A stretch of 64,000 nucleotides of DNA from positions 1 to 64,000 of the forward strand of contig CAIYJE010000031.1 in assembly GCA_903926465.1 (NCBI GenBank), written 5' to 3'. The position numbers and the translations under genes are program-made. The notes beneath the pieces are model-generated. The model worked only from the letters and a program-made list of their open reading frames with translations. It made no database searches and was not told the DNA's origin. Position 1 is the stretch's first letter. Each line of letters opens with the position of its first letter. Below are positions 50,174 to 54,638 of the stretch, piece after piece. This DNA is from an uncultured Planctomycetales bacterium (GTDB lineage Bacteria > Planctomycetota > Planctomycetia > Isosphaerales > Isosphaeraceae).

Positions 50174-50632
50174 TCAAGCTTCGACCTTGAGCATCAGGCT
50201 GCACTGGAAGAGCAACAGAAGCGAGTGAGCGGTCCACACCACCGTTCGAAACCAGTTCGAGACCACAAGCCAGCGATGGGCAGACTCTGTGAACTCGGCA
50301 CCCAACCGATCATGCAAGGGAACCTGAATCAACATGGTGGAACCCCAGACCAGGGTTACAAGCACAAGCCCGGCCCAGTTGAACACGCCTTGCTGACCAG
50401 AGCCCCGCAGGTACACCAGGGCTACCGAAGCGGCAAGCTCTACCAACATGGGCGGGGCAACCACCCAGCCGGTCCGCTCCGTATGCAAATTGTGGTACGC
50501 CCGGAACTCTGACCCGCCAACTTGGCCCATGAGCGGGTAATGCACAACCTGCACAAACCAGATGACCCCCGTCATGAACAAACTTGCTGCAAACGCACTC
50601 AACAGCAACCATCGGTAAGCCAGTAAATCCAT
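50174..50632 (-). CDS. Four-helix membrane protein of unknown function
   Basis: A 152-residue protein predicted to have four membrane helices (LLLSAFAASLFMTGVIWFVQVVHYPLM, LVELAASVALVYL, WAGLVLVTLVWGSTMLIQVPLHDRL, TVVWTAHSLLLLFQCSLMLKV). The WFVQVVHYPLM and QVPLHDRLG phrases recur in a family of uncharacterised bacterial membrane proteins. ATG 50632 is chosen because GAGGA lies 4-5 nt before it, unlike the ATG at 50656. Confidence 0.7.
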   Translation of the reverse strand: MDLLAYRWLLLSAFAASLFMTGVIWFVQVVHYPLMGQVGGSEFRAYHNLHTERTGWVVAPPMLVELAASVALVYLRGSGQQGVFNWAGLVLVTLVWGSTMLIQVPLHDRLGAEFTESAHRWLVVSNWFRTVVWTAHSLLLLFQCSLMLKVEA

Positions 50633-50717
50633 GACTTCCTCTATAACGTCCATCAAAAAGCCTGAGGAATCCGTCCTGGTGAACGTCTACGCCTTCCCAC
50701 CTTGATCGCGTGCAAGA

Positions 50718-51677
50718 TCAGGAGTCAGCCGATTCCAGCTTGGTGGTCCGACTGCGTGGGTGGCAGTTCTTGTGCACTTGTAGCAGGCGACTCATTTCCA
50801 CTCGCGTGTAAATTTGAGTGGTCGCAATGGAAGCGTGCCCCAGAATTTCTTGAACCACCCGCAGGTCTGCCCCGCCAGCCAGCATGTGGGTGGCAAAGCT
50901 ATGCCTGAGCGTGTGAGGGCTCACCCCCTGGGTCAGGCCCAGGCGACTAGCGTGCTGAGTGACCACCCGCCAAAGTCCCACTCTTGAAAGGGGTAGACCA
51001 CGACGGGTAACAAAAACTTTCGGACCCGCCTGAGTTTTCATCAACGCCGGTCGATCCTTCTCAAGATAACGAGTCAGAGCCGTACACGCACGATCTCCCA
51101 AAGGAACAATCCGCTGCTTGTTCCCCTTGCCAATACAGCGCAGGATTTTGTTCCGCAAATCAAAATCCGAGAGCGTTGAGCTTACAACTTCCGAGGCGCG
51201 ACAGCCGGTAGCATAGAGCGTTTCGAGCAGGGCGCGGTCTCGACTCCCCAGGTGCGTCTGTGGGTCCGGAGAATCCAGCAGGCGTTCAACCGTGGCAGGA
51301 TTGAGAACCGTCGGCAGTCGATCCCAAACGGCAGGGGCCGTCAGAAGACGCGCCAGGTTTTCCGTCAAAAGCCCTTCCAGCACCAGATACCGAAAAAACG
51401 TGGAAAGGCTGGCAAGATGCCGGTTAACGCTGGCCGGTGAGAGTCCACGATTGGAAAGGCTGATCACGTAGCCCGAAAGAGTATCCACGTCGAGCTGATC
51501 GATTGGTCCGATCATGACGGACTTGCGCCAGTTCGAAAATCGCAGTACATCCGAGCGGTAAGCGGCCAGCGTGTTTGGCGAAACCCCACACTCGGCCATC
51601 AGATAGTACAGAAACGGGCCAACAGGATCGGAGTTGGGTGTCGGCCTGCGCGAGAGAGGAAGCCGATGGAGAGTCAT
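50718..51677 (-). CDS. XerC/XerD-type tyrosine recombinase
   Basis: A tyrosine recombinase of about 319 residues. The SAM-like N-terminal core-binding domain is PVGPFLYYLMAECGVSPNTLAAYRSDVLRFSNW. The catalytic residues are visible: Arg in TGCRASEV, Lys in GKGNKQR, His/Arg in HTLRHSFATHMLAGG, His in LGHASIATT and the nucleophile Tyr in QIYTRV. This is the length and motif set of chromosome-dimer-resolving Xer proteins. A true XerC or XerD label is not possible without the dif site or a second copy. It is the last gene of a minus-strand operon behind a sigma factor and a MerR-type regulator, an unusual setting. ATG 51677 or 51725 are possible starts. Confidence 0.88.
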   Translation of the reverse strand: MTLHRLPLSRRPTPNSDPVGPFLYYLMAECGVSPNTLAAYRSDVLRFSNWRKSVMIGPIDQLDVDTLSGYVISLSNRGLSPASVNRHLASLSTFFRYLVLEGLLTENLARLLTAPAVWDRLPTVLNPATVERLLDSPDPQTHLGSRDRALLETLYATGCRASEVVSSTLSDFDLRNKILRCIGKGNKQRIVPLGDRACTALTRYLEKDRPALMKTQAGPKVFVTRRGLPLSRVGLWRVVTQHASRLGLTQGVSPHTLRHSFATHMLAGGADLRVVQEILGHASIATTQIYTRVEMSRLLQVHKNCHPRSRTTKLESADS

Positions 51678-51754
51678 AGGGTTACCAGGTACGGAGAACA
51701 ATCCGCGTAGGTTTCTATGAAGCATCGGCCAATTTTGACTTCAAACTGATCTTT

Positions 51755-52744
51755 TCACACAGCGGCCAGTGTGTCTTCCAGCACGCCCCCCTCCAGGGCT
51801 GCAGCACGAAGCTTGACCAGGGCACGATCCTGGATTTGGCGAACTCGTTCCTTGGAGACCGACATCACTTTTCCAACCTGGCTCAGTGACATCTTTGCTT
51901 TCCCGCTCAGCCCAAAACGGAGTTCAAGAACTTCTTGTTCCCTGGGGCGAAGGCAAGAGAGCAACTTGTTGACGGTTTCATCCATATCGACATCGTCGGT
52001 CTTGTCTCCATCCGGATCACTCATCAACTGCAGAAGACTGAAGTTCGATTCGGAATCGATGGTGGCATTCAAAGAAACCGTTGGGCGGGTGGCCGCATGA
52101 ATCCGCTGGATCACTTCGGAGGAAACAGAGTCCGATTGAGAGATTCCGCGTGTTGATGGGATAACAGACCCATCGGCATCGAAGGTTTCCTGATTCTGGG
52201 CGAGCTGTCGAAGGTGCCTGGGGCTCAGACGAACTGGATAAGCTCCAGCCGCCACCGCCCGCTGAATGGCCTGGCGGATCCACCAGGTGGCGTAGGTTGC
52301 TAGCTTGGTTTCGTGCGTCAGGTTGAACCGATCAATGGCTTCAAGCAAACCACAGAACCCTTCCTGCACCAAGTCTGAGTAAGAGACGCCGCGGTCTCGA
52401 AACCGCTTGGCCACGTGGGCAACCAGTCGCATGTTGGCCAGAGCAATCCGGGTGCGAAGCTGCGTGTACTGCTGATAAACCAGCCCAAGCCGGGCTTGCG
52501 AAGCCCCCTGCTGTGCGGCTCTAGTGTAATAATTGGCAATCGACTCGCTGACAGCCTGGGGATCATCCACATCTTCTGGAGGTAAGAAACCCGGAATCTG
52601 AGAGAGCGCCTCTCCGAGTTTCGCTTTACAACCGGCGAGTTCCCTGAGGAGTTCGCGTTCTTCCTTGGCCGTCAGGAGACGAGTCTCAAGGCAATCCAGG
52701 GCGGCAAGAGACTCACGATCATCGTTTCTGCGTTGAACTTGCAT
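51755..52744 (-). CDS. RNA polymerase sigma-70 family factor (RpoD-like, group 2/3)
   Basis: A 329-residue sigma factor. It contains region 1.2-like (DCLETRLLTAKEERELLREL), region 2 (ANMRLVAHVAKRFRDRGVSYSDLVQEGFCGLLEAIDRFNLTHETKLATYATWWIRQAIQRAV, which melts the -10 element), region 3 and region 4 (LRPREQEVLELRFGLSGKAKMSLSQVGKVMSVSKERVRQIQDRALVKLR, which binds the -35 element). It is smaller than primary sigma factors and lacks region 1.1, so it is an alternative factor. ATG 52744 has AAGGA 7 nt upstream. It is 56 nt downstream of the MerR-type regulator gene, which suggests co-regulation. Confidence 0.9.
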   Translation of the reverse strand: MQVQRRNDDRESLAALDCLETRLLTAKEERELLRELAGCKAKLGEALSQIPGFLPPEDVDDPQAVSESIANYYTRAAQQGASQARLGLVYQQYTQLRTRIALANMRLVAHVAKRFRDRGVSYSDLVQEGFCGLLEAIDRFNLTHETKLATYATWWIRQAIQRAVAAGAYPVRLSPRHLRQLAQNQETFDADGSVIPSTRGISQSDSVSSEVIQRIHAATRPTVSLNATIDSESNFSLLQLMSDPDGDKTDDVDMDETVNKLLSCLRPREQEVLELRFGLSGKAKMSLSQVGKVMSVSKERVRQIQDRALVKLRAAALEGGVLEDTLAAV

Positions 52745-52800
52745 CAGAAGGTCCTTGCGACAGTGGTTCAAAGCCAGAGCGCTACGAGAATTGAGGAAGA

Positions 52801-53751
52801 TCAGGCCGTTTGAGAAATTGCGAGGGAGGGAACCGATCGCTCCACCTTGCGAGGATGAAGCAGCCGTGAGAATTGCACGAGATCACCGATCCGGTCGCCA
52901 AACGCAGCACAAGGAAGGCTTTCACGGATTGCTAATCCGAGCGCTTGCCCACCCATCACCACTGGCACATAAAACCGGGCGGCAATCTCAGCGAAGTTGA
53001 GATAGCTCTGAATGAATTGGTCTGGATTCTCCAGATGCGAGATCGTTAACCAGACCATCCGTGGTCGATACTGCTCCACCGCCCTGCCAAGGGAGTCAAG
53101 CGGTAGATTTGCGCCAAGATTGATCACATCCCAGCCATCAGCACGCAGGCAAAACTCGCAGAGTAATCCCGAGATCGTGTAAGGATCATCTTCCGGAGCA
53201 CACCCGAGTGCGAGTGGACCGGCAGGAGTTCCTGTTTCACGGTTTTTTTGTTCAAACAGACGATTCTGCTCCAGCAAGATCCCTTCAAGAATTCGGCTGG
53301 CTCGGTGTTCCTGATAAATGTCCAGCGTACCTGCTCGCCAGGCCTCGCCAAGCTGCACGAGTGCAGGATGGATCAGGTGATCAGCGATTTCAATCGAATC
53401 ACCAGCCCGCCCGACCAGGCCCTGAATGATCGCCCGGACCTCAGACTCAGCACCATGGGTCAAGGCGGCCAAGAGCCGCCCCACCAAGGTGGAATCCGTA
53501 ACCGTGTTGGAGGCCGTTTGACCAAACTGCCGGTTGGAAGCCACCCACCGTTCGAGCTCGCCTTGCAAAGGCAAACCGCGTTCACACGCATACTGATAAA
53601 CAATATCAGGGCTGACCAGACGATGCTTGCCACAGGTCCGAGCTGCCTGGATCAAGCCGCCATCAATCAGCCGCTTGACCGTGCTCACGCTCAACCCCAG
53701 TGACTCAGCCACCTGGGTTGTCTTCCACAACAGTAAACCTGGCTTGGCCAC
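52801..53751 (-). CDS. MerR-type regulator with B12-binding-like domain (CarH-like), lower-axial His missing
   Basis: A 316-residue regulator. An N-terminal MerR helix-turn-helix (LWKTTQVAESLGLSVSTVKRLIDGG, about 8-32) is followed by a helical cap and a cobalamin-binding-like Rossmann domain. In CarH, light-sensitive adenosylcobalamin is held by a Wx9EH motif and by a lower-axial His. Here Trp138, Glu148 and His149 (WRAGTLDIYQEH) match the first, but the place of the His is Tyr191 (DDPYTISG). It may therefore bind another ligand, or cobalamin differently. GTG 53751 has GGAG about 9 nt upstream; a longer frame to 53865 would run through repeats that look like its own operator. It leads an operon with a sigma factor. 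Confidence 0.82.
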   Translation of the reverse strand: MAKPGLLLWKTTQVAESLGLSVSTVKRLIDGGLIQAARTCGKHRLVSPDIVYQYACERGLPLQGELERWVASNRQFGQTASNTVTDSTLVGRLLAALTHGAESEVRAIIQGLVGRAGDSIEIADHLIHPALVQLGEAWRAGTLDIYQEHRASRILEGILLEQNRLFEQKNRETGTPAGPLALGCAPEDDPYTISGLLCEFCLRADGWDVINLGANLPLDSLGRAVEQYRPRMVWLTISHLENPDQFIQSYLNFAEIAARFYVPVVMGGQALGLAIRESLPCAAFGDRIGDLVQFSRLLHPRKVERSVPSLAISQTA

Positions 53752-53788
53752 GATTCGTAGCTCCAAGAAAACGAGCAGAAGACAAAAT

Positions 53789-53924
53789 GAACGTTTTGGA
53801 CGAATTGAACGATTTAACAATATCCCAAGACTCGCCCCCATGCAAGAGATCGCCGCAATTTTCATAGAAAAAGAAGCACGGATGAACGATTACCACCAGG
53901 CCGAATGACCGTTTTGGACGTTTA
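53789..53924. promoter_or_regulatory. Tandem 9-bp repeats in the MerR / pyrE intergenic region
   Basis: Three contiguous 9-bp units run GAACGTTTT GGACGAATT GAACGATTT (53789-53815), consensus GRACGNWTT. A second group lies 90 bp on: GAACGATTA (53884-53892) and GACCGTTTT GGACGTTTA (53907-53924). The first set sits 38-64 bp upstream of the regulator start, where operator and promoter would be. Repeated direct half-sites with fixed spacing are how CarH-type MerR proteins bind as tetramers, so autoregulation by the adjacent MerR-type protein is likely. Confidence 0.6.
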
Positions 53925-54062: not shown

Positions 54063-54638
54063 TTGAGCGCATCATTTGATCGCAACGCACTCATTTCACT
54101 GCTCAAACGGGATTCCCTGAGGGTGGGCCAATTCACGCTCGCCAGCGGGCGAAGTTCGCATTATTACGTGGATGGCCGCCGCGTCACGCTTTCGGCCGAG
54201 GGGGCTCGGCTGATCGGTGCCGGGGTCATGGAGTTGCTGAAAAACTACCCAGACGTTCAGGCGGTTGGTGGCCTGACCATGGGAGCCGATCCCATTGTGG
54301 GGGCCACCCTGGCTCTGGCCAGCTCGTTCGGACGAAGCGAATTGCGAGGTTTTCTGGTTCGCAAGGAGGCCAAAGATCACGGCACGGGCAAGCTGGTGGA
54401 AGGCCCACTTGAGCCAGGCATGACCGTGGTTGTGGTGGATGATGTGGCCACGACCGGCGGATCGTCCTTGAAGGCCGTTGAAGCGGTCCAGGCCATGGGC
54501 TGCAAGGTTGCCTGCGTAATTGCCGTGCTCGACCGCCTGGAGGGGGCAACGGCCAACTTCGCCAAGGTAAACCTGCCACTGCATACGCTGTGCACCATCA
54601 AAGACCTGGGCGTAGAGCCGCTTGCCCCCACCACTTGA
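54063..54638 (+). CDS. pyrE: Orotate phosphoribosyltransferase
   Basis: Makes orotidine 5'-phosphate from orotate and PRPP in pyrimidine synthesis. It has the family opening FTLASGRSSHYYVDGRRVTLSAEGARL, the flexible catalytic loop region VRKEAKDHGTGKLVEG, and the PRPP-binding motif VVVVDDVATTGGSSLKAVEA. The length (191) is usual. TTG 54063 lies about 9 nt after GGAGAA. Divergent from the MerR-type regulator gene. The PD-(D/E)XK-like gene follows 71 nt later on the same strand. Confidence 0.95.
   Translation: MSASFDRNALISLLKRDSLRVGQFTLASGRSSHYYVDGRRVTLSAEGARLIGAGVMELLKNYPDVQAVGGLTMGADPIVGATLALASSFGRSELRGFLVRKEAKDHGTGKLVEGPLEPGMTVVVVDDVATTGGSSLKAVEAVQAMGCKVACVIAVLDRLEGATANFAKVNLPLHTLCTIKDLGVEPLAPTT

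Follow-up and report, generated by a model that had tools for sequence, protein, structure and literature searches.

As judged from its sequence, the regulator encoded at 52801..53751 (minus strand, 316 aa) of the planctomycete DNA studied here (64,000 nucleotides, hereafter the window) is a real and conserved variant of the CarH/LitR kind, in which the lower-axial histidine is replaced by a tyrosine (Tyr191), and is by the defining motif of CarH not a CarH. Together with its genomic setting, this leads us to read it, at a probability of roughly 0.6, as a CarH-derived repressor that would act through 9-bp repeats as a local switch of its own sigma factor operon, with the sigma factor relaying the signal. 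No description of this tyrosine-variant family was found in the literature searched.

The regulator gene, with a GTG start, is followed on the minus strand by two genes with ATG starts: one for a sigma-70-type factor (51755..52744; RpoD-like, not primary) with regions 2 and 4, and one for a XerC/XerD-type tyrosine recombinase (50718..51677). Given these starts, the reading frames agree with the gaps of 56 and 77 nt recorded in the first-pass annotation, and its numbering of Trp138, Glu148, His149 and Tyr191 is right when counted from the GTG; alternative starts are a possible TTG at 52771, upstream of the ATG of the sigma gene, and an ATG at 51725 for the recombinase gene. A consensus scan of the intervals between the three genes found no terminator-like or promoter-like site on their strand, which counts as weak evidence. 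Among relatives, regulator and sigma genes are closely spaced (a median of 29 nt, and in some cases an overlap), and sigma and recombinase genes more loosely (median ~134 nt, range 31–632). On the other side of the regulator lies the divergent pyrE (orotate phosphoribosyltransferase; 54063..54638, plus strand), whose synteny is conserved in the family Isosphaeraceae, and the order of divergent pyrE, regulator, sigma and XerD genes is common to most regulator-carrying genera of that family. After the recombinase gene comes a 160-codon frame with no Pfam match (50174-50656, minus strand), homologues of which, at 39–54% identity, are found close to the corresponding locus of several relatives.

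The regulator combines a HTH_17/MerR-like DNA-binding domain, a four-helix B12-binding_2 domain with GxxW and Wx9EH, and a Rossmann B12-binding domain bearing Tyr191; in Pfam the first two score above cut-off and B12-binding is sub-threshold (26.7 bits, cut-off 32.1). The nearest NCBIfam model is the CarH equivalog NF052513, yet the match of 56.9 bits falls short of its cut-off of 400. An AlphaFold2 model computed from 59 class members (mean pLDDT 90.9) predicts the three-part fold of CarH, and its top PDB matches in Foldseek are 8jbt/8jbs, the light-responsive B12 domain of CtMerR from Chloracidobacterium thermophilum (TM 0.82–0.84 by target length), after which ranks TtCarH; a phmmer sequence search returns the same order. 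The kinship with CarH asserted in the first-pass annotation is thus borne out by both fold and sequence. CtMerR, a light-responsive MerR-B12 protein, is the nearest relative of known structure in both sequence and fold. It has in common with the regulator GxxW, EH, GxxxP and an Arg after the Trp, and also the PEGD and LGPNTPL-like stretches around them that occur in many members of the family, but its lower-axial ligand is His204, where the present family has Tyr.

CarH homologues have been defined by the possession of both Wx9EH and the lower-axial His (PMC8156234). In TtCarH, W131, E141, H142 and H177 are all described as key to AdoCbl binding (PMC11796333), and His132 takes over the cobalt after light (PMC10442372). 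The regulator retains Wx9EH, as had been noted earlier, and in place of the lower-axial E/DxHxxG it reads D189-P-Y191; since H177 of TtCarH is the very residue replaced, the light chemistry of CarH cannot simply be assumed for it. Further along, T236-I-S238 comes 41 residues past position 194, and the GG at 267-268 follows at a spacing of 28, just over the range of 22–27 quoted for CarH; both S/T236 and the GG are near-invariant across the family. Of the four elements (GxxW, EH, GxxH, GxxxP) of the SignatureFinder signature for light-responsive domains, which was proposed on the basis of CarH-like proteins (PMC11796333), the regulator has three (GEAW, EH and GANLP), with GxxH replaced by DDPY here and reading GDxY in many homologues.

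Homologues were drawn from relatives, from 84,980 scanned species genomes and from a sample of the class, in which the family is present in 79 of 119 genomes. In 83 aligned planctomycete homologues the replacement is confirmed as the prevailing state, with position 191 being Tyr in 67, Ser in six, His in five, Ala in two, Thr in two and Phe in one. W138, E148 and P217 are present in all 83, H149 and with it the whole of Wx9EH in 78 (Arg in the other five), and the GG in all 81 that have letters there, while the position after Trp138 varies greatly and is in no case His. Twenty further genomes, mostly of other families of the class, have Tyr191 in 18 cases and the Trp and Glu in all, with Arg at position 149 in 18. 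A local mutation of this genome as the source of Tyr191 is thereby ruled out, as the Tyr is class-wide. A tree of 81 family rows with 14 canonical MerR-B12 paralogues, built without column 191, separates all 81 from the paralogues and places Tyr on every main branch, with His nested inside Tyr clades; among close relatives the two residues are one codon step apart (TAT at loci L159/L160, CAT at L161/L163). Of these 14 paralogues, which come from Isosphaeraceae, all but one keep the His. The genome under study has no such paralogue: its B12-binding_2 matches are limited to the regulator and a frame of 1240 codons, the size of MetH. In a second large clade, the EH of Wx9EH has become ER (18 of the twenty further genomes) with the Trp, Glu and Tyr kept, and a sigma gene is still divergent in about half.

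The adjacency of regulator and sigma gene exceeds chance: a sigma-70-type gene adjoins the regulator in 67 of the 83 homologues, in one operon in 29, divergently in 35 and otherwise in three, and regions 2 and 4 of the divergent type were confirmed by Pfam on examples. Here, Pfam likewise identifies Sigma70_r2 and Sigma70_r4, and the protein is the fifth-best RpoD_Cterm match in its own genome (~172–173 bits), scoring 102 bits with the general sigma70-ECF superfamily model and not qualifying as an ECF-type factor. It is a secondary sigma factor, because RpoD proper (369 bits with RpoD_Cterm) is encoded elsewhere; the gene for this primary factor occupies positions 70401-71111 of the same contig, ~6.4 kb past the window end. 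The best E-value went to MzaA, the sigma factor of the MZA anti-phage system, an identification rejected at 184 bits against a cut-off of 800.

Ten of the 83 homologues adjoin fasciclin/DUF378 genes instead (family names confirmed by Pfam on examples), and at two loci a fasciclin gene comes after the divergent sigma gene. At eight loci fasciclin or DUF378 membrane protein genes stand divergent beside a regulator without a sigma gene, and several fasciclin/DUF378 loci carry the same 9-bp operator between the divergent genes. A fasciclin gene is given as a photooxidative-stress gene under RpoE-ChrR in the passage of PMC10949492 that cites Dubey 2021, and RSP_1409 is such a fasciclin gene (PMC7074977). 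Because fasciclin genes replace or adjoin the sigma gene in other lineages, the regulon of the sigma factor would be one of stress response. The literature search for CarH with fasciclin or planctomycetes returned nothing relevant.

The recombinase, by comparison, is probably a housekeeping gene and a loose passenger at this locus. It matches Pfam Phage_integrase and exceeds the cut-off of the XerD equivalog TIGR02225 (333 bits against 329.6). The first-pass annotation had seen in its coupling to the regulator something unusual, and that it might be part of the signal output can be argued from its keeping the same strand and place in most members of the family with the sigma operon. This reading is most improbable in the face of its XerD grade, the presence of just one other gene of XerC/XerD grade in the genome, the larger and variable gap that separates it from the sigma gene, and its joining of the locus only within Isosphaeraceae, outside which the regulator is accompanied by sigma or fasciclin genes; a functional coupling is rejected on these grounds. 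The comparison of the operon across related planctomycetes hence upholds the regulator-sigma pairing (67/83) and fails to uphold the recombinase part, which is confined to the one family.

In front of the regulator lies a feature that the first reading overlooked, a 9-bp direct repeat with the unit CGTYCAaan just after the -10 element. The putative proximal operator consists of three such repeats, CGTTCAattCGTCCAaaaCGTTCA (53788..53811, minus strand), and the putative distal one, 109 bp away, of two, CGTCCAaaaCGGTCA (53906..53920, minus strand). The putative -10, TATTGT (53817..53822, minus strand), ends 5 nt before the proximal operator; it was placed by alignment with orthologous promoters, most of which have TAnnAT there, and a consensus scan does not pick it up. 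A putative -35, TTGCAT (53840..53845, minus strand), was read from the sequence 17 nt before the -10, and orthologues show CTTKYCC-like letters at about that place. The spacing of 5 nt between TAnnAT and the proximal site recurs in most orthologues, and in Gemmataceae a sigma-70-like promoter that reads into the divergent gene has its -10 directly next to the repeats.

In 40 of 85 sequences a strict repeat pair lies upstream, compared with 0.02 in shuffles, and this holds for no period other than 9 bp and for a single orientation; about half of the homologues are without a strict pair, and none is present at 20 paralogue loci. Perfect matches to the longer pattern AWCGTYCAAANCGTYCA number nine in 16 genomes of the family and are all in front of the regulator, with few one-mismatch matches elsewhere in these genomes; of five perfect matches to a 15-base version in seven other genomes, four are at the regulator. 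This co-occurrence suggests that the CGTYCA repeats are bound by this regulator. A genome-wide regulon built on CGTYCA pairs was considered and discarded, as the full pattern singles out only the regulator's own locus, and almost all of the 93 loose pair matches in the genome are of the CGTCCAT type, differing from the operator by the T after CA. By eye, no operator was seen upstream of the fasciclin genes of this genome. On many of its contigs there is a separate 9-bp tandem motif, CGTCCATNC-CGTCCA, with ~90 copies against five for a reversed control, which is distinct from the operator.

Several readings of the altered pocket have to be weighed. The regulator might have become cofactor-free, its B12 pocket a relic and the switch a protein partner or the level of the protein itself, as would fit the loss of the key lower-axial His, the change of EH to ER in one clade and the tolerance of Ser, Ala, Thr and Phe at position 191. 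B12-independent relatives do exist, e.g., CarA of Myxococcus xanthus with its antirepressor CarS (PMC9304148, PMC8156234), and class II LitR with its short LOV partner offers another precedent (PMC9758184). CarA, a CarH paralogue, has likewise lost one of the two signature motifs, but it is the converse one: its B12 independence is ascribed to the loss of Wx9EH (PMC8156234), which the present family keeps while having lost the axial His. Moreover, the invariance or near-invariance of the Trp, the Glu, the GG and the spacing of the B12 motifs across a divergence down to ~30% identity would be needless for a relic, and we regard the loss of the cofactor as possible though doubtful.

At the other pole, the protein might remain a CarH-like AdoCbl photoreceptor, with Tyr191 as an oxygen ligand to cobalt (base-off/Tyr-on) and light as the trigger that frees the operator. 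In favor of this, the residues on the adenosyl side are retained, position 191 is most often Tyr, which interchanges with His in close relatives, and CtMerR, which like the regulator has Arg after the Trp, is still light-responsive (PMC11796333). Yet the literature searched yielded no protein-bound cobalamin coordinated by Tyr, and Ser, Ala, Thr and Phe variants occur in otherwise similar proteins; since position 191 is not fixed, a Tyr-Co bond cannot be general, and such a photoreceptor appears rather unlikely. Tyrosine is a familiar metal ligand in heme proteins, and the change of the cobalt-side residue with retention of the adenosyl-side ones might accordingly point to a pocket that binds another tetrapyrrole or adenosyl compound, e.g., heme or a cobamide other than cobalamin. 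The whole B12-binding fold with the spacing of the GG and SxS/T motifs is nonetheless retained and nothing speaks directly for another ligand, making this improbable. Cobalamin itself is a plausible ligand, as suggested by the kept adenosyl-side residues and by a cobalamin adenosyltransferase encoded in the genome, alongside the B12 protein of MetH size. More tentatively, the family might be seen as class-wide planctomycete B12 sensors in which the cobalt is held from below by Tyr, or by nothing, and which would mediate a light or redox response different from that of CarH via dedicated sigma factors.

Under the favored reading of a CarH-derived local switch, the regulator would sit on the direct repeats just after the -10 of its own operon, acting as a repressor rather than an activator, and the regulator-sigma transcript would be shut off until a signal, of which light may be a part, alters its oligomeric state. 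The genes to which the freed sigma factor would then redirect RNA polymerase would probably serve the response to light or oxidative stress. The signal would still be a cobalamin, most likely AdoCbl in a base-off state with Tyr or nothing below the cobalt, and the XerD-like recombinase would remain a housekeeping neighbor outside the circuit. That the regulator relays a signal to the sigma factor, as the first-pass annotation proposed, is backed by the class-wide conservation and by an operator essentially unique to the locus.

A likely parallel for such local repression of a sigma gene is Streptomyces, where LitR controls the sigma gene litS (PMC12705666): there too a CarH-type regulator controls a sigma gene whose product drives the output, and the adjacency and the putative operator in front of the regulator conform to a module of this type. 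The Streptomyces pair differs in that LitS belongs to the ECF sigma factors and LitR works with B12, whereas here the sigma factor is RpoD-like and encoded downstream in one operon. With CarH/LitR class I (Thermus, Myxococcus, Bacillus megaterium) the regulator shares the winged-helix, four-helix and Rossmann parts, Wx9EH and a direct-repeat operator at promoter elements; those proteins, however, have the lower-axial His and stand beside crt genes rather than a sigma gene. The operators of known CarH proteins are 11-bp repeats (PMC9304148; nnnnTnnACAn in class I), and tandem 11-bp TnnACA repeats are not what is found here, the CGTYCA units being enriched at the 9-bp period only. This period, the replaced counterpart of H177 and the ER of the second clade all count against the proposed circuit.

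If the Tyr-form proteins still sense cobalamin, then the axial His of CarH would be dispensable, and they would show how an oxygen ligand, or none, alters cobalamin photochemistry, a matter of relevance to optogenetic tools. Should they not sense it, they would constitute a natural experiment in the conversion of a photoreceptor into a different sensor with the adenosyl-side residues kept. Either way, they would mark a simple one-target sigma switch, of a family found in most of the sampled genomes of the class, for which an exact putative operator is supplied for testing. As for the recombinase, there is nothing out of the ordinary in that part of the observation. The regulator family may be a sensor of light or of a ligand that works in a manner not yet described.
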